Origin: a virus
Strand: one strand, 5' to 3'
DNA length: 29,736 bases
Virus record (IMG/VR): IMGVR_UViG_3300033571_005825
Location: 1 to 29,736 of that record
Shown: positions 3,065 to 28,019 of the stretch, piece by piece
How positions within the stretch are numbered: position 1 is the first letter of the stretch
Layout: each line of letters starts with the position of its first letter
Made by a program: the position numbers and the translations under genes
The notes under the pieces: model-generated
What the model saw: only the letters and a program-made list of their open reading frames with translations
Told to the model about the DNA's origin: nothing
The model's database searches: none

Positions 3065-5065
3065 TTATCCCCAAGACATATTTTTCTTATAATTTTTCAT
3101 TTCTTCCCAGTGATTACCACCAAGCATACCAGCCCAATCTGGCCACTCAATATCTCCTGGCATATTATAGGCAAACCCTGATTGATTCATATTACTCATT
3201 TTATTTGGTTCTGAGTTTACTGTAGGATTAAAAAACGAACCTTGTGCTTCTTGTACGGTTTGTTCGGCTGCTTGAGAAGATACTGCTGCCTGATTTACAA
3301 CTTGGGTGTTTAACGCTGGCATCGATGGTGTTGAAACCATTTCAGATTGAATTGTAGATGCAATCATTGGTAAAAGCATACCAGCAATTCCACCAATACC
3401 TCCGCCCATACCCATCATACCCATCATATTCATCATTTGACCCATCATATTTCCTCCTGCAGGACCTCCGACAATTCCAGGAGTCATTGGAGAATGTGCT
3501 ACTGGTTCTGCCATAGCTGCTGGGGAAGGAGATGAAGTTGGTGGTGGGCTTGCGCCAACAGAAGGAGTTGCTCCTTGCATTGCTCTTTGTTCTGGCGAAC
3601 CTGCTATTTGATATGTGTCTGGAACTGATGGTGCACCACCTTTTGGTATTTCAGCATGTAAATGGTTACTATGACCAGCTGCAGCATATGGTCCGCTTTC
3701 TCTCCAATAAACTTTATATCCTAGTCTAGTCAATTGTTCGGCTAGTTGATCGAACTTGGCTCCCATAACAGGATCTCTTGCTTCAACATTACCTTCTCCA
3801 AAATTGATGTCAATTGCTCTACCTTCATAATGAGCTTTGCCTTTATGAACTGGTTTTACGCCACCAAATTGAGGATGTTCAGAGATACGCATTCCCATTT
3901 TTTCTAGAGCATGACCAAGAGCAACAACATCACCAGAAGGTAAAGAAGCGCCAACTTGTTCGCCATGTCCATGACCTTCGTGAGCAGCGCCGCTTATTGG
4001 CCCATGCCCGCCTTCTTTACCTATACGTTCTACTCTTGGATCGTTTGCTGATGGAATTACTTCAGGGGTTGAAACTGGAGTTGCTGAAGGTGTTGTAGGC
4101 GCAGCGGCCGGAGTAGTTGGAGTTGTAGGAACTTGAGTTGCTGCTGCAGTCATGGCAGCTTGTCCGCCATGTTTAGAAAAATCTTTTAACCATTTTGCTT
4201 GATATGATTCTGCTGTAACACCAGGATTAGCTGCCTGTTGTTTTGCTGACATACGACCTTGTAGATTACCAGTGAACCATTCTAAAGGAACTTTCGAAAC
4301 ATCTCCGCCTGCACGCTTTAGAATATCAGCGACATAAGCATCAGCAACTTTATCTTGAATTTCTGGAGGAGCATCTTTTGCTCTAGCGTAATTTGTTCCT
4401 ACGCCAGATTTTCTTTGCCAAGTTTGCCAAGTTTCATCAATGAATTGATATGCGCCACTAGCAGAACTTGTTTTTGCTTGCGCTTGATAGTTGTTACTAG
4501 ATTCTCTTTCTTTAATTGTATCAAGAATTGGTTTATTTGGACCGCTGAAAGGTATTGCCTGACTCATACCTCCGCCACCACCAAGCATTCCAGCACCAGC
4601 CATTGCTCCACCAGCAACAGCAGCGCCAATTCCCATTGTAGCTAATTGTTTAGCGAAATCAGAACTTAAATTAGTGATACTTCCTAGCAATCCGCTGCTA
4701 GTGTTATTCATAATATTACGGTTTAAATTTTCAATATCGCTACTAAGAATACGAGTGTTTCTGGTAACATTACCCATTTCAGATCGCATAGAATTTTGTA
4801 TTTCTAAAGATTCTCTGAAAAGAGCGTTTAGACTATCAATTTTATTACCAGTTTGTTGGGATTCTGAAACCATTTCTTCAAGCACATTACGAAGATCAGC
4901 GATATCTTCTCTTTGTGCTTTAAATGTTGTAGAAATATCCTTGACTATTCTAATTAAATTGGCGTTACTGGCATTAGCTGCTTGACGGAATTCTCCTGCA
5001 GTTTCTACTCCAGCACTTCTAATGCTTCTTGATATCGCCGATAATTCTTCCGCTTCTATAGCCAT
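3065..5065 (-). CDS. Tape-measure-like tail protein with lysozyme and M15-type peptidase domains
   Basis: This 666-residue protein starts with a long helical, coiled-coil-like segment (about 1-140). A Gly/Ala-rich hydrophobic stretch (about 141-166) follows, then a transglycosylase/lysozyme-like domain (about 178-300) with likely catalytic Glu188 and the SGAYQF block. After a Pro/Thr/Ala linker (about 310-340) comes a peptidase M15-like domain (about 375-475) with H412 and D419 in AHYEGRAID, plus HLH (H468, H470). The C-terminus has a Met/Gly-rich segment and an aromatic end. M15-type enzymes cleave peptidoglycan peptides. It is the last gene of the minus-strand tail module, downstream of gp26 and its -1 extension, which is the position of tape-measure genes. 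It probably supplies the wall-digesting activity that T4 carries in gp5. ATG 5065 has only a weak GGA upstream. Domains are fairly sure; the tape-measure role is inferred. Confidence 0.75.
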   Translation of the reverse strand: MAIEAEELSAISRSIRSAGVETAGEFRQAANASNANLIRIVKDISTTFKAQREDIADLRNVLEEMVSESQQTGNKIDSLNALFRESLEIQNSMRSEMGNVTRNTRILSSDIENLNRNIMNNTSSGLLGSITNLSSDFAKQLATMGIGAAVAGGAMAGAGMLGGGGGMSQAIPFSGPNKPILDTIKERESSNNYQAQAKTSSASGAYQFIDETWQTWQRKSGVGTNYARAKDAPPEIQDKVADAYVADILKRAGGDVSKVPLEWFTGNLQGRMSAKQQAANPGVTAESYQAKWLKDFSKHGGQAAMTAAATQVPTTPTTPAAAPTTPSATPVSTPEVIPSANDPRVERIGKEGGHGPISGAAHEGHGHGEQVGASLPSGDVVALGHALEKMGMRISEHPQFGGVKPVHKGKAHYEGRAIDINFGEGNVEARDPVMGAKFDQLAEQLTRLGYKVYWRESGPYAAAGHSNHLHAEIPKGGAPSVPDTYQIAGSPEQRAMQGATPSVGASPPPTSSPSPAAMAEPVAHSPMTPGIVGGPAGGNMMGQMMNMMGMMGMGGGIGGIAGMLLPMIASTIQSEMVSTPSMPALNTQVVNQAAVSSQAAEQTVQEAQGSFFNPTVNSEPNKMSNMNQSGFAYNMPGDIEWPDWAGMLGGNHWEEMKNYKKNMSWG

Positions 5066-5068
5066 TTG

Positions 5069-5251
5069 TTATCCGTTGCTTTTCTTTTTAGCTTCCTCTA
5101 CTTCTTTCAAGTAGTTTACCAGCATTTGAACATATATATCTCTTTCAAAAGGTGTCATAGATTCTATTTCACTAATTGAGTATTTATGGTGCTGAACCAT
5201 AGAGAATATTGTCGCATAATAGTTAGATAAAGTATTATGACTCAGCGCCAC
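5069..5251 (-). CDS. 60-aa -1 frame extension of gp26 (tail chaperone/hub assembly; gp51-like slot)
   Basis: The 60-residue frame begins at a GTG (5251-5249) within the end of gp26 and runs to TAA 5071-5069. It reads ALSHNTLSNYYATIF and then KYSISEIESMTPFERDIYVQ, followed by a charged C-terminal helix. No purine-rich ribosome binding site precedes the GTG; the upstream sequence is a run of seven T. The frame is -1 relative to gp26 and the T run forms a perfect slippery heptamer, so it is most likely expressed as the C-terminus of a gp26 fusion of about 294 residues. It sits between gp26 and the tape-measure-like gene, the place of the T half in G/GT chaperones. An independently initiated gp51-like hub assembly protein is the alternative. 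Confidence 0.65.
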   Translation of the reverse strand: MALSHNTLSNYYATIFSMVQHHKYSISEIESMTPFERDIYVQMLVNYLKEVEEAKKKSNG

Positions 5252-5952
5252 GTAAAAAAATCATTTAACGAACACAATACGATTTCGCGATCGTTCCCAA
5301 GCTCGTTTTGATAAATAATTTTATATTCCATTCTAGGAACGTTCAATAAAAAATTTTGAACTTGTTCAAACACTTTAATATTAAGATTTTCAATAAACTC
5401 GTTCAACTCTTCTTTTTTATAATCTTTACTTTCGTAAATCTGATCTTCGAAATAAACAGACTCTATACATCTAATTATAAGTTCGAACATATAATCTTTT
5501 TCTAAATTCAAAAAATCTTTATCGTCATATAAAGCTGCAGAAGGGTATTTCATTATAATACCAGACTGCGGAGTTATTTTTATTTTATTATCCATTTTCT
5601 TTGGATATTTTATTTTTACTTCTTCTAGATTTATATCAAACTCGTAGACTTTTTTGTCCTCTGAATCTCTGTATGAAACCTTAACAATATTATCTACAGA
5701 AACAGAACGAAGTTTTAGAAAAATATATTCTAAATCAAATAATGCTAACTTACTCACATCTAATTTTGGGTCAACAGAACAATTATTTACAACTTGTTTT
5801 ATGGCTGAAAGAATATCAGCAGAATTTTCGCTTTCTTTAGCCATCAAAAGTAGTTTTTCTTCTTTAACTAAAAAAGGTCTAAACTGAAAATCTTTTTTTA
5901 AAGAAGGAACATTTATTTTATAAACAGGGTAATCAATTTTAGGTAATGACAT
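5242..5952 (-). CDS. gp26: Baseplate hub/tail-assembly protein gp26
   Basis: The 236-residue protein resembles T4 gp26 (about 208 residues; Pfam T4 baseplate protein family). It shows the family-typical N-terminal beta region with FRPFLVKEEKLLLMA, then a helical segment with VNNCSVDPKLDVSKLALFDLEYIFLKLRS, written here in two parts because of length limits: VNNCSVDPKLDVS and LALFDLEYIFLKLRS. The C-terminal part ends LNDFFTWR. T4 gp26 is needed for hub assembly but its exact place in the virion is uncertain. GGAG lies 7 nt before ATG 5952. The stop TGA (5244-5242) lies beyond a run of seven T at 5260-5254 that fits a -1 slippery heptamer in this frame. By gene order it occupies the position of tail chaperone G. 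Confidence 0.8.
   Translation of the reverse strand: MSLPKIDYPVYKINVPSLKKDFQFRPFLVKEEKLLLMAKESENSADILSAIKQVVNNCSVDPKLDVSKLALFDLEYIFLKLRSVSVDNIVKVSYRDSEDKKVYEFDINLEEVKIKYPKKMDNKIKITPQSGIIMKYPSAALYDDKDFLNLEKDYMFELIIRCIESVYFEDQIYESKDYKKEELNEFIENLNIKVFEQVQNFLLNVPRMEYKIIYQNELGNDREIVLCSLNDFFTWR
5254..5260 (-). other. Candidate programmed -1 frameshift site T TTT TTT
   Basis: In gp26 frame the minus strand reads GAT TTT TTT ACG TGG CGC TGA, so the heptamer T TTT TTT has the X XXY YYZ form with the correct phase. Slipping back one base gives TAC GTG GCG CTG and enters the 60-aa open frame exactly at its annotated first codon. No downstream stem was evident by eye. Confidence 0.65.
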
Positions 5953-5967
5953 TAATAAACTCCATCA

Positions 5968-6633
5968 TTAATTTGTTACAATATCTCTCGCGCTTCCTGT
6001 TGTTAGATTATTTCTTTGTTGAGAATTTGTTGGCTGCATAGTAGAATTTTCTATCGAATATTCAGTGTAAGCAATTGAAACATTGATTTTTAAAAGATTT
6101 GTATCGCCCCATGAAAGAGGGAATTCTCTAATAGCTGTAGGAAAAGCGTCGAATAAATTAATTTTTTGAACTATATTTCCATAATGATCGTATATGAAAA
6201 TACTCATTGTTGATGCATAATTTTCTTTATAATCAGCAGTATAATTTGGTGTTGAATTATTTGTAGTAGAACCATTGTATTGAAAAATAGCTCTAGTCCA
6301 TTGATACCAATATTGCCAGAATTCGCAATAATGATCTCCTAACATAGATATATTAACTTCTTGGAATTGGGCGTTAATTGGCATTTTCTGAGTTGGACCT
6401 ATGCCAAATCTGTTTATATCAGCGGTCATAATGGAAATACCAGGAGCTCTTACCTGGTCTATTCTAAATTCCATATTTTTAGCTATTTTATAAACTGCTG
6501 TTGGTGTGCCTTGATTACTGAGGACTGCGTTAGATAAAACTCTTGGAGTCTGTATTAAAACAGAAAAAGAATTGTTATCTAGATACCCAAAATCTCTAAG
6601 GTTAGTTTGATAGGCGTTTATATTAAATGGCAT
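5968..6633 (-). CDS. Tail-tube-like protein (gp19/gp54 superfamily)
   Basis: The 221-residue protein has the look of a T4-type tube subunit or tube initiator. It has an N-terminal LIQTPRVLS strand pair, a central KNMEFRIDQVRAPGISIMT region, and a C-terminal block ending INLFDAFPTAIREFPLSWGD, followed by LLKINVSIAYTEYS. That end parallels the LWPTNVGELQLDWDSNNEI motif of T4 gp19. T4 gp19 is 163 residues and gp54 is 320, so length does not decide. The gene precedes gp26 and the tape-measure-like gene, where a tube or tube-initiator gene is expected. AGGA (6643-6640) supports ATG 6633. I favour tube initiator or hub-proximal tube paralogue, because the major gp19 normally lies with the sheath gene outside this window. 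Confidence 0.55.
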   Translation of the reverse strand: MPFNINAYQTNLRDFGYLDNNSFSVLIQTPRVLSNAVLSNQGTPTAVYKIAKNMEFRIDQVRAPGISIMTADINRFGIGPTQKMPINAQFQEVNISMLGDHYCEFWQYWYQWTRAIFQYNGSTTNNSTPNYTADYKENYASTMSIFIYDHYGNIVQKINLFDAFPTAIREFPLSWGDTNLLKINVSIAYTEYSIENSTMQPTNSQQRNNLTTGSARDIVTN

Positions 6634-9340: not shown

Positions 9341-10597
9341 ATGGCTGCTGGAGATATTAAAATATCGAATGTTAAAGTCGGAAGTATGGAGCTAACCAAG
9401 GACAAAAAAGTTTCATTGGTTGGATTCAACGTATATGAAGACATTTTAAATCCATATGGTCCTGTTGGTGAAGTCAGAGTTATGGATCCTTCTGATGCAT
9501 TGGGTCAAAATAAAATTAACGGTTCATATGATCAAGACGTTGAAATAAAATTTTCTGGTGATGATAATATCTTTAGTTCTGGTGGTGGCGGTAATTTCAA
9601 ATTTAAAATGTTTCAGAATAAAAATCTAAACGATCAATCTCTGAACAATACAGGTTCTGGTCACCATAAACAATACGATATAAGATGTGTTTCTCCAGAA
9701 TTTTTAAACGCTCAAGGAAATCATATTGAAAAGAGTTTTAAAGGTAAAACAAGCGAAGTTGTTGAACATATCCTTAAAGAAGGGTTTAAAACTAAAAGAA
9801 AAATAGAAAAAGCTGAGACCAAAGGAAATCGAAGAATTGTAATTCCTAAAATGCATCCTTTAGATGCTCTTAAAAAAATGAATACAGAGCATGTTTCGGA
9901 AAAATATGAATCTTCTACATTTGCTCTTTTTCAACAGGGAGATAGCGCTGGAGAACACAAATATGTGTTTAAAACTTTTGAGGAATTATTTGAACAATCT
10001 TCTGTTGTTAAATTAAGGCAAACTACTAATTTGAATTTTTCCAAAGGAAATCAACAGGACAAGCAAAATTCTATTATGTGGTTCAAACCTTCTAAGAATT
10101 TTGATGCTGGACCTAGAGCTCTGGATAAAACAGAAGAATATGCAATAGATTTAACAAGTCACAAAGTTGTTGCAACAAACACACAAAGACAGAATAAATT
10201 TAAATTTGCTGATAGTCAGGGCGTATATGAACAATCGCCTTCATATGCCAAGTCATTGCCTGTTAGATATATACATGATAAAGCTAATAACAAAGATAAA
10301 CATACAACTTCAGAAGCCAAAACTAAAAGATCTGCATTTTTAGCTCATCTAGCTCAAAATTCGGCAGAACTAGAGGTATACTACAATCCAAAAATAAAAT
10401 TGGGTTCTATGATTGAACTTGATATACCAAAAAAATCTAATAGTGATTGGGAAGAAGGCGAATCGCAATTCAATGGAAAATGTTTGGTTGTTGCCATAAG
10501 AACAAAGTATAGAGTTGCAGCAGAACCACCAAATTGCACTATGATACTCAGGGTTGTTAAGGCTTCATATAAACGTGGCGGCGGAGGTCAGGGATAA
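9341..10597 (+). CDS. gp27: Baseplate hub protein, gp27-like
   Basis: The 418-residue protein starts MAAGDIKISNVKVGSMELT and contains the layout expected of a hub of the gp27/gpD/VgrG superfamily. It has two beta-barrel-like halves with a linking region: FNVYEDILNPYGPVGEVRVM early, GKTSEVVEHILKEGFKTKRK and MHPLDALKKMNTEHV in the middle, and a C-terminal barrel ending CTMILRVVKASYKRG. T4 gp27 (391 residues) forms the trimeric ring between tube and spike. The next gene overlaps its stop as TAATG and encodes an OB-fold spike protein, its expected partner. Identity is inferred from fold-like landmarks and gene order, not from close sequence identity to T4. Confidence 0.75.
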   Translation: MAAGDIKISNVKVGSMELTKDKKVSLVGFNVYEDILNPYGPVGEVRVMDPSDALGQNKINGSYDQDVEIKFSGDDNIFSSGGGGNFKFKMFQNKNLNDQSLNNTGSGHHKQYDIRCVSPEFLNAQGNHIEKSFKGKTSEVVEHILKEGFKTKRKIEKAETKGNRRIVIPKMHPLDALKKMNTEHVSEKYESSTFALFQQGDSAGEHKYVFKTFEELFEQSSVVKLRQTTNLNFSKGNQQDKQNSIMWFKPSKNFDAGPRALDKTEEYAIDLTSHKVVATNTQRQNKFKFADSQGVYEQSPSYAKSLPVRYIHDKANNKDKHTTSEAKTKRSAFLAHLAQNSAELEVYYNPKIKLGSMIELDIPKKSNSDWEEGESQFNGKCLVVAIRTKYRVAAEPPNCTMILRVVKASYKRGGGGQG

Positions 10598-11004
10598 TGT
10601 TTTATATTGCTGAAGTAAGAAATTTTGAAGACGATCCGACTAAATCTGGAAGAGTTAAAGTAAGATTGTATAATGAACATAACGACGAACAGTCTATTAA
10701 GGATGAAGAACTTCCTTGGGCGATGGTCGTTCAGCCAGTAACTTCTGCAGCAACATCAAGAATTGGTGTTTCTCCTTCTGGTTTAAAAGTTGGTTCTAGA
10801 GTATTGGTAACTTATTTGCCGCATGATACTGCTATGCAATATCCTATTGTTATTGGTTCATTGGCACGTGGAGATATGCCAGAAGGTCATGATGATAGTA
10901 ATGGCGGCGTTGGACAACAAACACAAGAAGCTCAAAGAAATTCTGGTGGTAAAATCAAAAAACCTGGTATTGATAATCCTGCTTGGACAAGGAAAAATAA
11001 CTAA
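10597..11004 (+). CDS. Spike OB-fold protein (gp5 N-terminal domain equivalent)
   Basis: The 135-residue protein begins MFYIAEVRNFEDDPTKSGRVKVRL and continues to DEELPWAMVVQP, SPSGLKVGSRVLVTYLPHD and YPIVIGSLARG. This is the OB-fold of T4 gp5 and of gpV/VgrG spikes, with the GRVKVR, LPWA and PIVIGSL signatures. In T4 the OB domain is followed in the same chain by lysozyme and beta-helix domains. Here the chain ends after a Gly/Asn/Gln-rich tail, and the other functions are separate genes. TAATG overlaps couple it to genes on both sides. Confidence 0.85.
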   Translation: MFYIAEVRNFEDDPTKSGRVKVRLYNEHNDEQSIKDEELPWAMVVQPVTSAATSRIGVSPSGLKVGSRVLVTYLPHDTAMQYPIVIGSLARGDMPEGHDDSNGGVGQQTQEAQRNSGGKIKKPGIDNPAWTRKNN

Positions 11005-21326: not shown

Positions 21327-24300
21327 ATGCCATTAAAGACTGATTTCAATGTAGCGCCATATTATGATGATTACGATCCTGATAAAAACTATCATCGTAT
21401 TATGTTTAGACCTTCTGTGGCCGTTCAAGCTAGAGAATTAACACAATTACAGACTATTCTTCAGAATCAAATTGAGACTTTTGGTAACTGGTCTTTTAAG
21501 AGCGGAGATATTGTCAAAGGTTGCGATTTAGATCCTCTTCCAAAAGTTCCTTATATTCGATTGATGGATTTCGCTTCTAACGGTTCTGCTAATACAGCAA
21601 CACTAGATGTTACAGAATATATTAATGCTATTGCTACTAGTGTGACTAGTAATTTAACTGCAAAAGTTCTTTATGCTAATGCTGGTTTTACCACAAATTA
21701 TCCTGATAATAATATCCTTTATTTAAGATATCTAGATACAGGTGACGGAGGAGAAACTGTTTTTTCTAATTCAGAACTTCTTACGTTTCACCAGATAACT
21801 CCAGAAGGTAATGTTGCATTAGCTAATGTTTACACTATGTCGAACGTTTTAGCTGATACATATGCTTCTGGCAATGCGCACGGTATTACATCCAGTAATG
21901 GTATTATTTTCATTAATGGTTTCTTCATCAGAGTTCCAGCAGAAACTTTTGGATTAGTTAACAATTTTGGAACTTATGCTGGTAATAATGTAGTTGGTTT
22001 TACGTTAGTAGAACAGATCGTTACTGAGACTCAAGATACTTCTTTATTAGATAACGCTCTTGGTTATTCCAATGAAAACGCTCCTGGCGCACACAGATTA
22101 AAGTTAGTTCCTAAACTTGTTTCGTTATCTCAGGAACAAGCTGCTCTTACTAAAGATTTCAATCCATTAGGTTTTTATAACTATGGAAATTTTGTAAAAA
22201 AAGATACTCAGGATGATCCATATTCTATTGTAAATAATATTTTAGCAATAAGAACTTATGAAGAATCAGGAAACTACATTGTTAAAAATTTCGCTGTCGA
22301 CACTATAACTAATGTTGTAGGAAACGAAGCAGTACTTGGTGGTTATAGTAATGTTTTTGCTAGAGTTAGTTCAGGTATAGCTTACACTCAAGGTAATAGA
22401 GTAGAGCTTCTTAAATCCTCTCTTATTGAAATGCGTAGAGGAGTTGATACTGCTGTAAATAAGAGTCAACAGATAAGTTTCAATTATGGAAGTTATTTCA
22501 AAATAAATGAAGTTTCTGGAACATTTTTAACCGATAAAGCTCAGACAATAAAACTTTACTCTGTTCTTCAAAAATCAGTTACAAATAGAACATTTTCTTC
22601 TTTGACACCATCAGGAACTTATATTGGTACTGCTAAAACAAGATGTTTAACATATAATTCTGGCACTCCAGGAACATCATCTGCTGAATATATATTAAAT
22701 GTTTTTGATATTCAACTTTTATCAGGTTATAATATAAATCAGATTAAATCTCTTTATTATGATGGAACTAATAAAGCTGTAGCAGACGTTATTTCGAATG
22801 GTACAGTTGATTCTCAGAATAAATTGCAGTTATATAGTTTTGGTATTCCTGGCATTAAAAATTTAAGAGATGCTGGTAATATCATTAACACAGATTATAC
22901 ATATAGAACAACTAATTCTTCTTGTGTTATGACAACTGGAGGTCTTGTTGTAGTAAGAGCTCCGGAATCTCAAGCTGGTGGTTCTGATATATTACCTTAT
23001 GGAACAGGAACAACTCTTACTGATTCTTCGGCTTCTGAAATTATTTTAACATTTTCTTCGAACGCTGATTCTTCTGCATTGACAGGAACTGTTAATGTTT
23101 TTAGTGATTCTACTAACGTATTAGGATCTAGTACAACTTTTAATACTAATTTTAAACCAGGCGATGCTATTAGGGTTGGTGCTAGTGATGTGAGAATTGT
23201 ATCTAGTGTAACAAATGCAACATATCTTAATGTGGATGCAGCTTTTGGAGCTAATGCTACTGGCCAAAATCATTTCAAAAGATATCCAAAAGGTAAAATT
23301 GTTAAAATAGCCAGGTCTTCTATTGGACCAAACGCATATGTTACAGTAACAAATACTACATCATTCAATGTATATTCTGGAGAATTTCCGAGTTCTTCTG
23401 TAGGAGTTGAAGTTACTTTCAATATGCAAAGAACTGTTGCTAGTCCTGCAACTAAAAATATTAGAAAAAATAGATTTGTAAAAATAAATACCTCTTCAAA
23501 TCCAAAAGGTCCATGGTGTTTAGGTTTTAGCGACGTACATAAAGTAAATAAGATATATGGTTCTTCTACCAGTAGTTTTACTGGCGTTAATGGTATAGCA
23601 GCTATAGATTTAACTACCAGTTTTACTTATGATACTGGGCAACAAGACACTCATTATGGATTATCGTATTTGTATGCCAAATCTGGTTATAGTCCATCAA
23701 GTTATCCTTATCTTTTAGTAGATTTAGATTATTTTGTTGCTAATTCTTCGGCTGGAGTTGGTTTTTTCACAGTAGAATCTTATCCTATAGATGATGCTAA
23801 TACTGCAAATACAAATTCAATTCAGACAAAAGATATTCCTTTGTATGTTGCATCAACAGGTTCTAAGATTTATCTAAGAGATGTTATAGATTTTAGAACT
23901 CCTTGTGCAATCACAGCCAATGATACAGGAACTATAGTAGATACTTCAAATAGTGCACAAATTAATACTGCAGTTTCTTATGCTACTTTGAATCCATCAT
24001 CAACAGTTTCTCTCAGTATACCCACTGATGGTCTTAATTTTCCTTCTTATGGAAAAAATTTAGAAGCAGATTATACTTATTATTTACCAAGAAAAGATTT
24101 GATTTTAATTACACCAGAAGGATCATTAAAAGTCAAAGAAGGTGTTTCTAGCATTTCACCTCAGACTCCATTATATCCTGAAAATGCTATGGCTGTAGCA
24201 GTGTTGAATGTACCTGCTTATCCATCTCTTTCTGGAGATCAGCTTGATCAATTTCAGATAATAAATCAGAATACTCTTAATACTATAAGAGATACTTCTA

Positions 24301-25214
24301 CAGCAATAACTTCTAGTCTGGTTACAAACCGCCGTTACACTATGAAAGATATTGGCACATTAGATAAAAGAATTACTAATTTAGAATATTATGCACAACT
24401 TTCATTGTTAGAAAAAAAAGCCAAAGATTTAACTGTTACTGATGCGTTTGGATTAGATAGATTTAAAAATGGTATTTTCGTTGATCCATTTACAGATTTC
24501 AGTTTAGGAGAGGTTTCAAACCCTGAATACTCTATCGCTATTGATAGTCAAAAAGGCGTAGCTAGACCAAGAATAACAAGAGAAATTATAAATATTCGCT
24601 TTAATAGCGGAGCTTCTTCCAATGTCGTACAAACTGGCAGACTTGTAACTCTTCAATATACTTCTGTAGCTCATTTGACACAACAATTTGCAACAAAATA
24701 TCGTTCGTCAGCTTTGAAGGCTTATGCTTGGAATGGTAGAGCATTTTTGATACCTTCCTATGACAACAATATAGATTTGAATCAAACTGCTTCTGTCAAT
24801 TTAACAATAGATACTGCTACGCCATGGGTACAATTTGCAGATAGTCCATTTGGATCTTTATATGGAGATTGGCGAACCAGAACAGATGTTTCTAGTACTA
24901 CTATTGTAACAGGAACACAAAACAGTCTTGTATACGATTCAGCAGGAAATTTAGTCAGTTCTACTCCAATTACAGGACCTTCGAATAGAACTACTACATC
25001 GAGTTCTGGAGACACAACTACTGTTGGAAGTTCAGTAGCTCAGGCAGCTCTTGCAAGTTCCACTCAAGCGACAAATATGGCAACAACTTTAGGTTTACAA
25101 AACGGAACAACTGTTGGTGCAACTACAACTGCTACGGCAATTGGTACTGTTAGTACTCCATTAGGACAGCCTTTAAGATTTCAACCTGTCGGTATGAATA
25201 TCGGAAATCGATAA
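21327..25214 (+). CDS. Large virion structural protein, DUF4815-type (peripheral baseplate)
   Basis: The 1295-residue protein begins with the DUF4815 signature found in cyanophage and other exo-T4 virion proteins: NVAPYYDDYDPDKNYHRIMF, then SVAVQARELTQLQTILQNQI and GDIVKG. The chain is mostly beta, with a gp10-like TNLEYYAQLSLLEKKAKDL segment (about 1015-1035) and a Ser/Thr-rich end. A ~75-residue beta module at about 585-655 (nt 23079-23290) is shared with the following gene. It occupies the place of T4 gp9/gp10, so a peripheral, fibre-attaching baseplate role is inferred. ATG 21327 follows a weak AGGAA at 21317-21321. Confidence 0.75.
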   Translation: MPLKTDFNVAPYYDDYDPDKNYHRIMFRPSVAVQARELTQLQTILQNQIETFGNWSFKSGDIVKGCDLDPLPKVPYIRLMDFASNGSANTATLDVTEYINAIATSVTSNLTAKVLYANAGFTTNYPDNNILYLRYLDTGDGGETVFSNSELLTFHQITPEGNVALANVYTMSNVLADTYASGNAHGITSSNGIIFINGFFIRVPAETFGLVNNFGTYAGNNVVGFTLVEQIVTETQDTSLLDNALGYSNENAPGAHRLKLVPKLVSLSQEQAALTKDFNPLGFYNYGNFVKKDTQDDPYSIVNNILAIRTYEESGNYIVKNFAVDTITNVVGNEAVLGGYSNVFARVSSGIAYTQGNRVELLKSSLIEMRRGVDTAVNKSQQISFNYGSYFKINEVSGTFLTDKAQTIKLYSVLQKSVTNRTFSSLTPSGTYIGTAKTRCLTYNSGTPGTSSAEYILNVFDIQLLSGYNINQIKSLYYDGTNKAVADVISNGTVDSQNKLQLYSFGIPGIKNLRDAGNIINTDYTYRTTNSSCVMTTGGLVVVRAPESQAGGSDILPYGTGTTLTDSSASEIILTFSSNADSSALTGTVNVFSDSTNVLGSSTTFNTNFKPGDAIRVGASDVRIVSSVTNATYLNVDAAFGANATGQNHFKRYPKGKIVKIARSSIGPNAYVTVTNTTSFNVYSGEFPSSSVGVEVTFNMQRTVASPATKNIRKNRFVKINTSSNPKGPWCLGFSDVHKVNKIYGSSTSSFTGVNGIAAIDLTTSFTYDTGQQDTHYGLSYLYAKSGYSPSSYPYLLVDLDYFVANSSAGVGFFTVESYPIDDANTANTNSIQTKDIPLYVASTGSKIYLRDVIDFRTPCAITANDTGTIVDTSNSAQINTAVSYATLNPSSTVSLSIPTDGLNFPSYGKNLEADYTYYLPRKDLILITPEGSLKVKEGVSSISPQTPLYPENAMAVAVLNVPAYPSLSGDQLDQFQIINQNTLNTIRDTSTAITSSLVTNRRYTMKDIGTLDKRITNLEYYAQLSLLEKKAKDLTVTDAFGLDRFKNGIFVDPFTDFSLGEVSNPEYSIAIDSQKGVARPRITREIINIRFNSGASSNVVQTGRLVTLQYTSVAHLTQQFATKYRSSALKAYAWNGRAFLIPSYDNNIDLNQTASVNLTIDTATPWVQFADSPFGSLYGDWRTRTDVSSTTIVTGTQNSLVYDSAGNLVSSTPITGPSNRTTTSSSGDTTTVGSSVAQAALASSTQATNMATTLGLQNGTTVGATTTATAIGTVSTPLGQPLRFQPVGMNIGNR
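23079..23290 (+). repeat. Beta module shared between two structural genes (copy 1)
   Basis: The encoded pattern is LTGTVNVF, VLGSSTTFNTNFKPGD, SVTNATYLNV. It matches copies at about 27402-27620 (weaker) and 27672-27880 in the next gene. Over 30 bases (23132-23161 versus 27725-27754) 27 are identical by eye. Confidence 0.7.
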
Positions 25215-25280: not shown

Positions 25281-28019
25281 TTGGCCGCTATAAGCACAAC
25301 ATCTACAACATCTATAGAAACTAGTACTAGAGATGGTATAAAATTAACTGTAACTCCTGTTACATCAACTGAACAGATTGGTAATTTTGTTACATCTGTT
25401 TCTAATCAACCATTTATTGCTAATAGAGTTGTATCATTTTGCGCATATAATATGCGACCAAATCAAAGAATGCATTTTTTCTTTGATAGTATTAATGTTG
25501 ATCAATATTGTGCTCCTGCTGGACGAATTACCGGATCAGGAGATTTAGCAAATACTTATGTAATTCCATTATATGCTGAGTGGGCCAGTACAATTCCTAA
25601 AGGCGGTAATTGGGGAGATCCAATTTATTCAGATAAATGGGGAAGAATTGCTGGTCAATTTAATATTCCTGCAGGAAGATTTAAAACAGGCGATAGAGCT
25701 TTTCAGATTACAGACGTAGATAGTCTTATTCTTGGCACTGACGCTCTAACAACATTAGCTTCTGCAGTGTTTACTGCTTCAAACCTAAGTGTTACAAAAC
25801 AGATTACAACTCTTACAACAATTTCTCCTGAGTTAGGATCTGTACCAGTAACAGAAACAGTAACTCAAAGTAATACCGTTACAACTGAAACAACTCTTGA
25901 AGATGTTATTACTATATTACCTCCGCCTCCGCCGCCTCCTCCAATTTTTTGGTTCTGGCTCGAACCAGTAGCTCAAGCTCTTTCAATTCAAACTCCACAA
26001 GGTCAAGCTGGAATATTTGCGACAGGGTTACGTTTGTTTTTTAGACAAAAATCCAAAGTAAGAGATTATGGAGTAACTGTGTATCTTTGTGAAACTGACA
26101 ACGGTTATCCAAACGGTAACGCCATTTTGCCTTATTCAACAGTTCATAAAGAATATGCAGATATTAATATCAGCCAAGATGCTAGCGTTCCAACGACATT
26201 TCTTTTCCCATCCCCAGTATTTCTTTTGAACAATAAAACTTATGCGTTCGTTATCAGACCAGACGCAAACGACCCTGACTATCAAGTTTGGACTTGTAGA
26301 CTTGGTGATGTAGACGTTGCTAGTGGATATCAGGTTTATAGTCAACCTCTTGCTGGTACAGCTTTTTATGGAGCTACTGATAAACAATGGACAGCTCTCC
26401 AAGACGAATATGTTAAATTTATTTTATACAGAGCAGAATTTAATTCACAAGAAGGCCAAGCTGTATTCTATAACAGCAATACTGAATACATTTCTGTATA
26501 TAATGTTGGTTATGTTAACACAACTGCTAGTATATTATCAGGAGATATAGCATTTCAATCTACTAATTCTTTATCAAACTCAACTGGCGGTACAGCAAAC
26601 TCTAGCGTCTATGCTAGAGTTGATTATTATGATTCAGTTAAAAATATTGTTTACTGCGATGATTCTACAGGTCAGTTTATTGATAATGCATTTGTTCAAA
26701 TACATAGATTTAGCAACACAACATATAGTCCTAATAATTTGACTTTAGTTGCTTATGCTAATACTGGACTTTTATATAACCCAGTAGTTGATGCTGTTAC
26801 TCCTCAGTTAGCTTTTATGACTCCTGCAGGAACTGTATTAGATGTTTATTATAAAGGAACAAGTAACAGTTATTCTTTGGATTCTTCGGATTTTAGAGTT
26901 ACGCCAGGATATGAATCAGAATTTTATGACAGAGAAAGAATTGTATCAAGTAAATCAAATGAAATTTATAACATGTCTGGAAATAAATCTTTTATTTTAA
27001 AAGGTAAAATGACTAGCGATACCTCTTTCTTGTCTCCTGTGATTGATGTTGTTAGAAATCAGCAGCTAGTAATTAAAAACGAAATTGACAATTTGTCTTT
27101 TCAGTATGATGAGTTTTTCAATTCCGGAAACGCGAAATCAAAATATGTTTCTAAAGTTATAACGCTAGCTCCAGGGCAAGATGCTGAAGATTTACAAGTT
27201 GTTCTTACTGCTTTTAGACCTGTTGGTTCGGAAATCGAAGTTTGGGTAAAATATTTAAACGGAGAAGACCCAGAACCAATATCTCAAAAAACATGGAGTC
27301 CATTATTAAATAATACTTTGGATTATTATTCGGATCCAAGTAACCCCAACGACTTTAAAGAATATGTTTTTTCTACGTCTGAAAATTACCCATTTATTCA
27401 ATTATCAGGAACTGTTACAGGAAATACAACGAATACTACTTTAACTGGAGTAAATACTTTATTTCAATCAGAAGTATATCCAGGATGGTACGTGGTAACA
27501 TTACCAGACTCTCCTACTACTAATACAGTTAATACTAGAAGAATTATTAGTATTGAAAATAACACAAGTTTGACGATATCTTCAAACAATTCAGTTAATT
27601 CTACAGCACAAACAGCATATTTGGCATTTCCTCCAACTACTGCTTATATGTCGCGACAGAGTACGACTCAATTGACTGGAACTGCTAGCGTTTATACTAC
27701 TAATAATTCTGTTGTTGGATCAGGAACAACTTTTAATACTGATTTTAGACCAGGAAGTATTGTTCAGGTTGCCAATGATTCGCAGATAATAGTTTCAGTT
27801 ACTAATAGTACTCATTTAACAGTGGGCACACCATGGAGCTCTACTGTTTCGGGAGCAAATGTGTTTATTGAAACTCCTCTTGGAGTGACATATTCTTCCC
27901 TAGATAATAAAATTTACACAACATTTAAACAATTCCAGATTAAAATTATTCTTAAATCTAATGATAGTTCTAAAGTTCCTATTATTGATGATTTAAGAGT
28001 TCTAGCTTTGCAGATGTAA
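25281..28019 (+). CDS. 912-aa peripheral baseplate/fibre-network protein
   Basis: The start is TTG 25281 with AGGAGA at 25270-25275. The 912-residue protein has an N-terminal domain (about 1-150). A Thr/Val-rich stretch is followed by eight consecutive prolines (about 212-219), then a domain beginning FWFWLEPVAQALSI. This includes TGLRLFFRQKSKVRDYGVTV, NGYPNGNAILPYS and the PTTFLFPSPVFL-LNNKTYAFVI region. I recall the same block in the C-terminal part of DUF4815 proteins of cyanophages, so here the function may be split across two genes. The last third holds two copies of the LTGT beta module shared with the preceding gene. Role inferred: outer baseplate and fibre attachment. Confidence 0.7.
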   Translation: MAAISTTSTTSIETSTRDGIKLTVTPVTSTEQIGNFVTSVSNQPFIANRVVSFCAYNMRPNQRMHFFFDSINVDQYCAPAGRITGSGDLANTYVIPLYAEWASTIPKGGNWGDPIYSDKWGRIAGQFNIPAGRFKTGDRAFQITDVDSLILGTDALTTLASAVFTASNLSVTKQITTLTTISPELGSVPVTETVTQSNTVTTETTLEDVITILPPPPPPPPIFWFWLEPVAQALSIQTPQGQAGIFATGLRLFFRQKSKVRDYGVTVYLCETDNGYPNGNAILPYSTVHKEYADINISQDASVPTTFLFPSPVFLLNNKTYAFVIRPDANDPDYQVWTCRLGDVDVASGYQVYSQPLAGTAFYGATDKQWTALQDEYVKFILYRAEFNSQEGQAVFYNSNTEYISVYNVGYVNTTASILSGDIAFQSTNSLSNSTGGTANSSVYARVDYYDSVKNIVYCDDSTGQFIDNAFVQIHRFSNTTYSPNNLTLVAYANTGLLYNPVVDAVTPQLAFMTPAGTVLDVYYKGTSNSYSLDSSDFRVTPGYESEFYDRERIVSSKSNEIYNMSGNKSFILKGKMTSDTSFLSPVIDVVRNQQLVIKNEIDNLSFQYDEFFNSGNAKSKYVSKVITLAPGQDAEDLQVVLTAFRPVGSEIEVWVKYLNGEDPEPISQKTWSPLLNNTLDYYSDPSNPNDFKEYVFSTSENYPFIQLSGTVTGNTTNTTLTGVNTLFQSEVYPGWYVVTLPDSPTTNTVNTRRIISIENNTSLTISSNNSVNSTAQTAYLAFPPTTAYMSRQSTTQLTGTASVYTTNNSVVGSGTTFNTDFRPGSIVQVANDSQIIVSVTNSTHLTVGTPWSSTVSGANVFIETPLGVTYSSLDNKIYTTFKQFQIKIILKSNDSSKVPIIDDLRVLALQM
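27402..27880 (+). repeat. Two tandem LTGT-type beta modules (copies 2 and 3)
   Basis: Copy 2 (about 27402-27620) reads SGTVTGNTTNTTLTG, TLFQSEVYPG and ISIENNTSLTIS. Copy 3 (about 27672-27880) reads LTGTASVY, VVGSGTTFNTDFRPG and SVTNSTHLTV. Copy 3 is far closer to the copy in the upstream gene than to copy 2. Confidence 0.65.

Follow-up and report, generated by a model that had tools for sequence, protein, structure and literature searches.

The window (the whole stretch of 29,736 nucleotides analysed here, taken from a virus record) is DNA of a freshwater relative of phage T4, and T4-like genes for head closure, tube cap, baseplate wedge and single-strand binding proteins are found elsewhere on it. 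As listed in Table 1, gene 26 lies between a tail tube protein gene and a short open reading frame that is followed by a gene for a 666-aa protein. The order of tube, gp26, gp51 and long coiled-coil-like protein resembles that of V-G-T-H in phage lambda (tube, G, T, tape measure; PMC5009743). Judging from its position, the 666-aa protein would take the place of the tape measure protein; no tape measure family was matched by it in the family profile searches. In phage HTVC008M, a gene annotated as putative tape measure is located nearby downstream.

Table 1. Features of the gp26/gp51 locus and its neighbours in the window.
Feature	Position	Strand	Evidence or remarks
Gene 26, predicted short (G-type, TAC-N) tail assembly chaperone, 236 aa	5242..5952	-	Own ATG with GGAG Shine-Dalgarno; PF12322, phrog_150, fold
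Slippery heptamer T TTT TTT (X XXY YYZ)	5254..5260	-	80/80 distinct junctions
Predicted -1 frame extension (gp51, T domain), 61 residues from YVALSH after F-F	5069..5254	-	phrog_634 8.8e-26; phrog_150 C-terminus
Predicted downstream RNA stem	5191..5246	-	Follows the heptamer after a 7-nt spacer; 5246-5238 paired with 5199-5191, loop of 38 nt
Tail tube protein gene, directly upstream of gene 26 (lambda V position)	5968..6633	-	phrog_45 7.4e-23, PF23849 2.4e-9
666-aa protein, directly downstream	3065..5065	-	Coiled-coil-like N-terminus, transglycosylase-like region; PF06737 3.3e-5, below the curated cut-off

Two further observations were made on other genes of the window. Consecutive ORFs at 21327-25214 and 25281-28019 (+) matched positions 1-1201 and 1316-1603, respectively, of the 2056 positions of phrog_358, both being on the plus strand, and the gene may be split or may change frame between the two ORFs. 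The gp5-like hub protein (10597-11004, +) has only 135 aa and covers about positions 20-129 of the 868-position hub/lysozyme family. Given the transglycosylase-like region of the 666-aa protein, a lysozyme-type activity may reside there instead.

On the minus strand, gene 26 ends with ...AAT GAT TTT TTT ACG TGG CGC TGA, the stop being at 5244-5242. A reading of this DNA made from the sequence alone (the sequence-only reading) had proposed that the run of seven T's is an in-phase slippery heptamer and that a -1 slip on it enters an open 60-aa frame beginning with GTG. The heptamer was found exactly where and in the phase in which it had been described, ahead of the 0-frame stop, and the -1 ORF (5251-5069) is indeed open, with 60 aa and GTG as its first codon. 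No Shine-Dalgarno sequence was found in the 20 nt preceding this GTG (TCGTTAAATGATTTTTTTAC), while gp26 (GGAG) and the tube gene (AGGA) each have one. The -1 frame carries a TGA directly before the T run, and thus no start is possible upstream for this frame. Upon a -1 slip, base 5254 would be read twice, and the predicted fusion has 233 gp26 residues plus 61, or 294 residues, the length that had been estimated. Runs of seven T's are not rare as such in the window, whose minus strand has 13 and whose plus strand has 4. What makes this one significant is its conservation.

We compared the junction among environmental relatives, for which 158 loci were fetched and identical junctions were removed, leaving 80 distinct junctions, window included, with gp26 identities of 34-100%. 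All 80 kept the in-phase T TTT TTT, and gp51 was in the -1 frame in each. The codons GAT TTT TTT showed no synonymous change inferred on the gp26 tree, whereas 11-21 TTT/TTC changes were counted at each of eight other conserved Phe codons and 9-23 changes at each of six other conserved Asp codons. Elsewhere, TTC makes up 33% of the Phe codons, and GAC makes up 25% of the Asp codons. This absence of synonymous change argues that the heptamer is under selection beyond the residues it encodes. Conservation of the extension begins with the very first residue that follows the slip.

A second set comprised 22 sequenced phages, including Kyanoviridae, Straboviridae (e.g., KVP40, Aeh1 and 65.2) and rhizobial, Pseudomonas, Stenotrophomonas, Pelagibacter and methylotroph phages. 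Gene 26 of these isolates carries T TTT TTC, T TTT TTT or T TTT TTG near its end, and gp51 is in the -1 frame to gp26 in 22/22. S-PM2 and Aeh1 both have T TTT TTC, and their junction peptide would contain F-F-R, compared with F-F-Y-V-A-L in the window. The comparison of homologues that the sequence-only reading had called for gave a -1 overlap in 102/102 junctions and a slippery run that was never lost. Separately, near 2700-2750 of its locus in Pseudoalteromonas phage XG4, a gp26 relative ends in CGT TTT TTA GTA TAA, giving a T TTT TTA heptamer of the type used by HIV-1.

The same junctions bear on whether gp51 could instead be a 60-aa protein of its own, for which reinitiation or translational coupling downstream of the gp26 stop would provide a start at the GTG (5251). 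The GTG is present in the window, an ATG lies just after the gp26 stop in S-PM2, S-ShM2, P-SSM2, DLP6, S-SKS1 and S-SRM01, and many cyanophage GenBank records annotate gp51 in this way. However, neither the window's GTG nor the ATG that some cyanophages have at this place is accompanied by a Shine-Dalgarno sequence, and in most relatives the corresponding codon is CTT, GTT, ATT, GTA, CTG, TTT, TCT or another codon, most commonly CTT, GTT or ATT. In 50/80 relatives, 12 or more codons of the -1 frame follow the slip before any ATG, GTG or TTG, and no start was found before the conserved gp51 domain, with its predicted helices, in Aeh1, 65.2, Cronobacter S13, HTVC008M, ACG-2014b, IG49, Melnitz-3 and Astolliot. 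A conserved ATG with a ribosome binding site for the small ORF, which would have spoken for independent initiation, was not seen in the 102 junctions. Separate initiation also leaves the frozen heptamer unexplained and does not account for the fused form present in T4 (see below), and we consider it very unlikely. In GenBank, gp51 is omitted in Aeh1, Aeromonas 65.2, Cronobacter S13, ACG-2014b and S-WAM1 and shortened in P-HM2, as expected if a gene finder requires a start codon for a frameshifted extension.

Downstream of the heptamer, the stem of Table 1 was found in the lowest-energy fold of 73/77 relatives, and outer pairs of 5251-5248 with 5189-5186 are possible in the sequence of the window. 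The mean folding energy was -18.1 kcal/mol versus -14.0 when the halves were swapped between sequences, and the mean z of the stem region was -3.77 versus -0.40 for control windows inside gp26. Pair 5241/5196 was GC in 33, AU in 19 and GU in 16 sequences, both bases being second positions of gp51 codons. Two pairs of the stem covaried, and at several other positions the few changes mostly broke pairing. RNAalifold returned no consensus structure with default scoring and a 9-bp stem with ribosum scoring, and the stem was assessed by individual folds, ribosum scoring and pair counts. Together, these results give the predicted and conserved stem good support as a stable structure, with moderate support from covariation, and its 7-nt spacer would place a stimulator at a distance suitable for -1 frameshifting.

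In most isolates the heptamer is preceded, at a distance of about 12-15 nt, by a GAGG/GGAGG-like element, and in several it is followed by a stable hairpin. For example, S-PM2 has GGAGG 15 nt before its T TTT TTC site and a nearly perfect 14-bp hairpin (GTTCTATAATAAT / ATTATTATAGAAC; z -4.8) just after the gp26 stop. The upstream element was absent in 78/80 members of the window's clade and present in only 2/80. The chances are evenly balanced that the slip site was rebuilt in the freshwater clade, where the heptamer is U UUU UUU, the upstream SD-like stimulator of cyanophages and other relatives would have been lost and a long-range stem within the gp51 coding region would have taken over.

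Slippage of RNA polymerase on the T run, rather than of the ribosome, could also give a -1 product, and a seven-T homopolymer is present in the window and in all 79 close relatives. In most isolates, though, there are only six T's (T TTT TTC, in one case TTT TTG), always in the phase for tandem slippage, and the downstream stem and upstream SD-like element sit at ribosome-type distances and act on translation. Polymerase slippage is likewise very unlikely. A T run arisen by chance, or an indel from sequencing or assembly that breaks a single in-frame gene, is refuted by the relatives: homopolymer errors are generally common, but independent assemblies share this junction with cultured, annotated phages of several families.

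The proteins encoded on both sides of the junction were identified by profile and structure comparison. The gp26 protein matched PF12322 (T4_baseplate) with an E-value of 2.2e-52 and 178.3 bits against a curated cut-off of 24.5, and phrog_150 with 9.6e-54. The frame that had been treated as an anonymous 60-aa extension is the known gene gp51: its match is to phrog_634 ('baseplate hub assembly catalyst'), with a weaker one to the C-terminal part of phrog_150, the profile of the gp26 family. An AlphaFold2 model of gp26 had a pLDDT of 91. In the fold comparison, residues 1-95 matched 3FGX, 2OB9 and 3KLU with Z of 8.2, 7.4 and 6.9, respectively; Z below 8 can reflect a common arrangement, and here these three stand alone, the next match having Z 2.5 and the others at most 2.5. 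The matched structures are those of HK97 gp13, YqbN and RBSTP2171, and they are exactly the three solved ones given as tail assembly chaperones in PMC9603447. According to the model, the N-terminal domain of gp26 has the tail assembly chaperone fold as in HK97 gp13, in agreement with the earlier proposal that gp26 is the G-type chaperone. The likeness to tail chaperones came from fold comparison; searching the PDB with sequence profiles found no relative of either gp26 or the extension, and Foldseek with the gp26 model gave no significant match (2OB9 at E 1.6). The extension was predicted to form three helices (model pLDDT 73), and its model gave no useful fold match.

In T4, gp26 and gp51 both belong to PF12322. 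T4 gp51 matched PF12322 over residues 1-201 (3.9e-52) and the gp51 family phrog_634 at residues 147-246 (1.2e-23). It therefore consists of a gp26-type domain plus the gp51 extension, the C-terminal domain being the one that the -1 frame encodes in the window, and the fused form exists in T4 as one protein. Gene 51 of T4 is on the strand opposite to gene 26, and a full-length gp51 carrying the same C-terminus is also encoded separately in Aeromonas phage 31 and RB43. From these sequences, the short and long forms of T4, Aeromonas phage 31 and RB43 are two separate genes, with no frameshift needed in T4; in the window, the -1 frame would permit both forms. The gp26/gp51 tree has long branches and is unrooted; it is compatible with one duplication in the T4/RB43/Aeromonas 31 line but is no proof of it. 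T4 gp51 is required yet absent from the particle. For gp26, the listed role is that of a hub assembly chaperone, though some genetic work puts it in the hub (PMC3004832).

Taken together, the sequence, its conservation and the predicted structures make it very probable that programmed -1 ribosomal frameshifting yields a short and a long tail assembly chaperone in the window. Gp26 and gp51 would be one chaperone gene read two ways. Most ribosomes would end at the TGA of gp26 and release the short, G-type protein of 236 aa. A minority would slip back one base with two Phe tRNAs on U UUU UUU, aided by the stem 7 nt downstream, and continue in the -1 frame to give the GT-type protein (gp26 residues 1-233 followed by the gp51 residues). 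By analogy with lambda, the short form would coat the tape measure protein, the long form would recruit tail tube subunits, and both would depart before the virion is complete. The slippage, its level and the roles of both products are inferred from these comparisons. The heptamer of lambda G/GT is G GGA AAG, different from U UUU UUU in the window. Counting against slippage, ribosomes of E. coli slip less readily on U UUU UUU than on A AAA AAG (PMC5009743). The proposed device otherwise resembles lambda G/GT, in which a short chaperone is made together with a small fraction of a -1 frameshifted long form and neither G nor GT is in the virion (PMC5009743). No sequence similarity to lambda is expected, and the G-like domain of the window has about 140 further residues. 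The chaperone locus of Vandenendeviridae and Andersonviridae, phage families other than that of the window, is also similar: its short chaperone gene ends with a poly-T run (GTTTTT) at which a -1 shift is conserved (PMC12846349).

In 2016, T4 was named as the exception to the conservation of G-T frameshifting among long-tailed phages (PMC5009743). Vladimirov, Gautam and Davidson (2022, Virology 566:9-15), as represented in the papers citing them, described T4-like phages with one short and one long (fused) chaperone gene (PMC10885494, PRFect) and poly-T signals for a -1 shift in the TAC-N genes of such phages (PMC12846349). Our analysis of gp26/gp51 agrees with both points as cited. The tie between a T4 hub gene and the G/GT mechanism, put forward in the sequence-only reading, is thus supported, and it had already been published in outline by these authors according to the same two papers. 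In view of these citations of Vladimirov et al. (2022) in PMC10885494 and PMC12846349, the T4 duplication is not put forward as a new finding. The frameshift device of T4-like phages has been reported before; our addition is comparative evidence, which is strong, together with a conserved, predicted RNA stem behind the slip site. We document the freshwater clade with its U7 site, its predicted stem downstream of that site and its lack of the upstream SD-like element.

For a long time, T4 gp26 and gp51 were regarded as hub chaperones whose role was unclear. Our comparison shows that they are the T4 counterparts of the short and the long chaperone found in other tailed phages. Frameshifting appears to be how the long form is made in the remaining T4-like phages that we examined, and it would also account for databases missing or truncating gp51 in many phages. 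If the slip site was rebuilt in the freshwater clade, the frameshift would have been kept while its parts were exchanged. The locus also provides a compact slip site with exchangeable stimulators.
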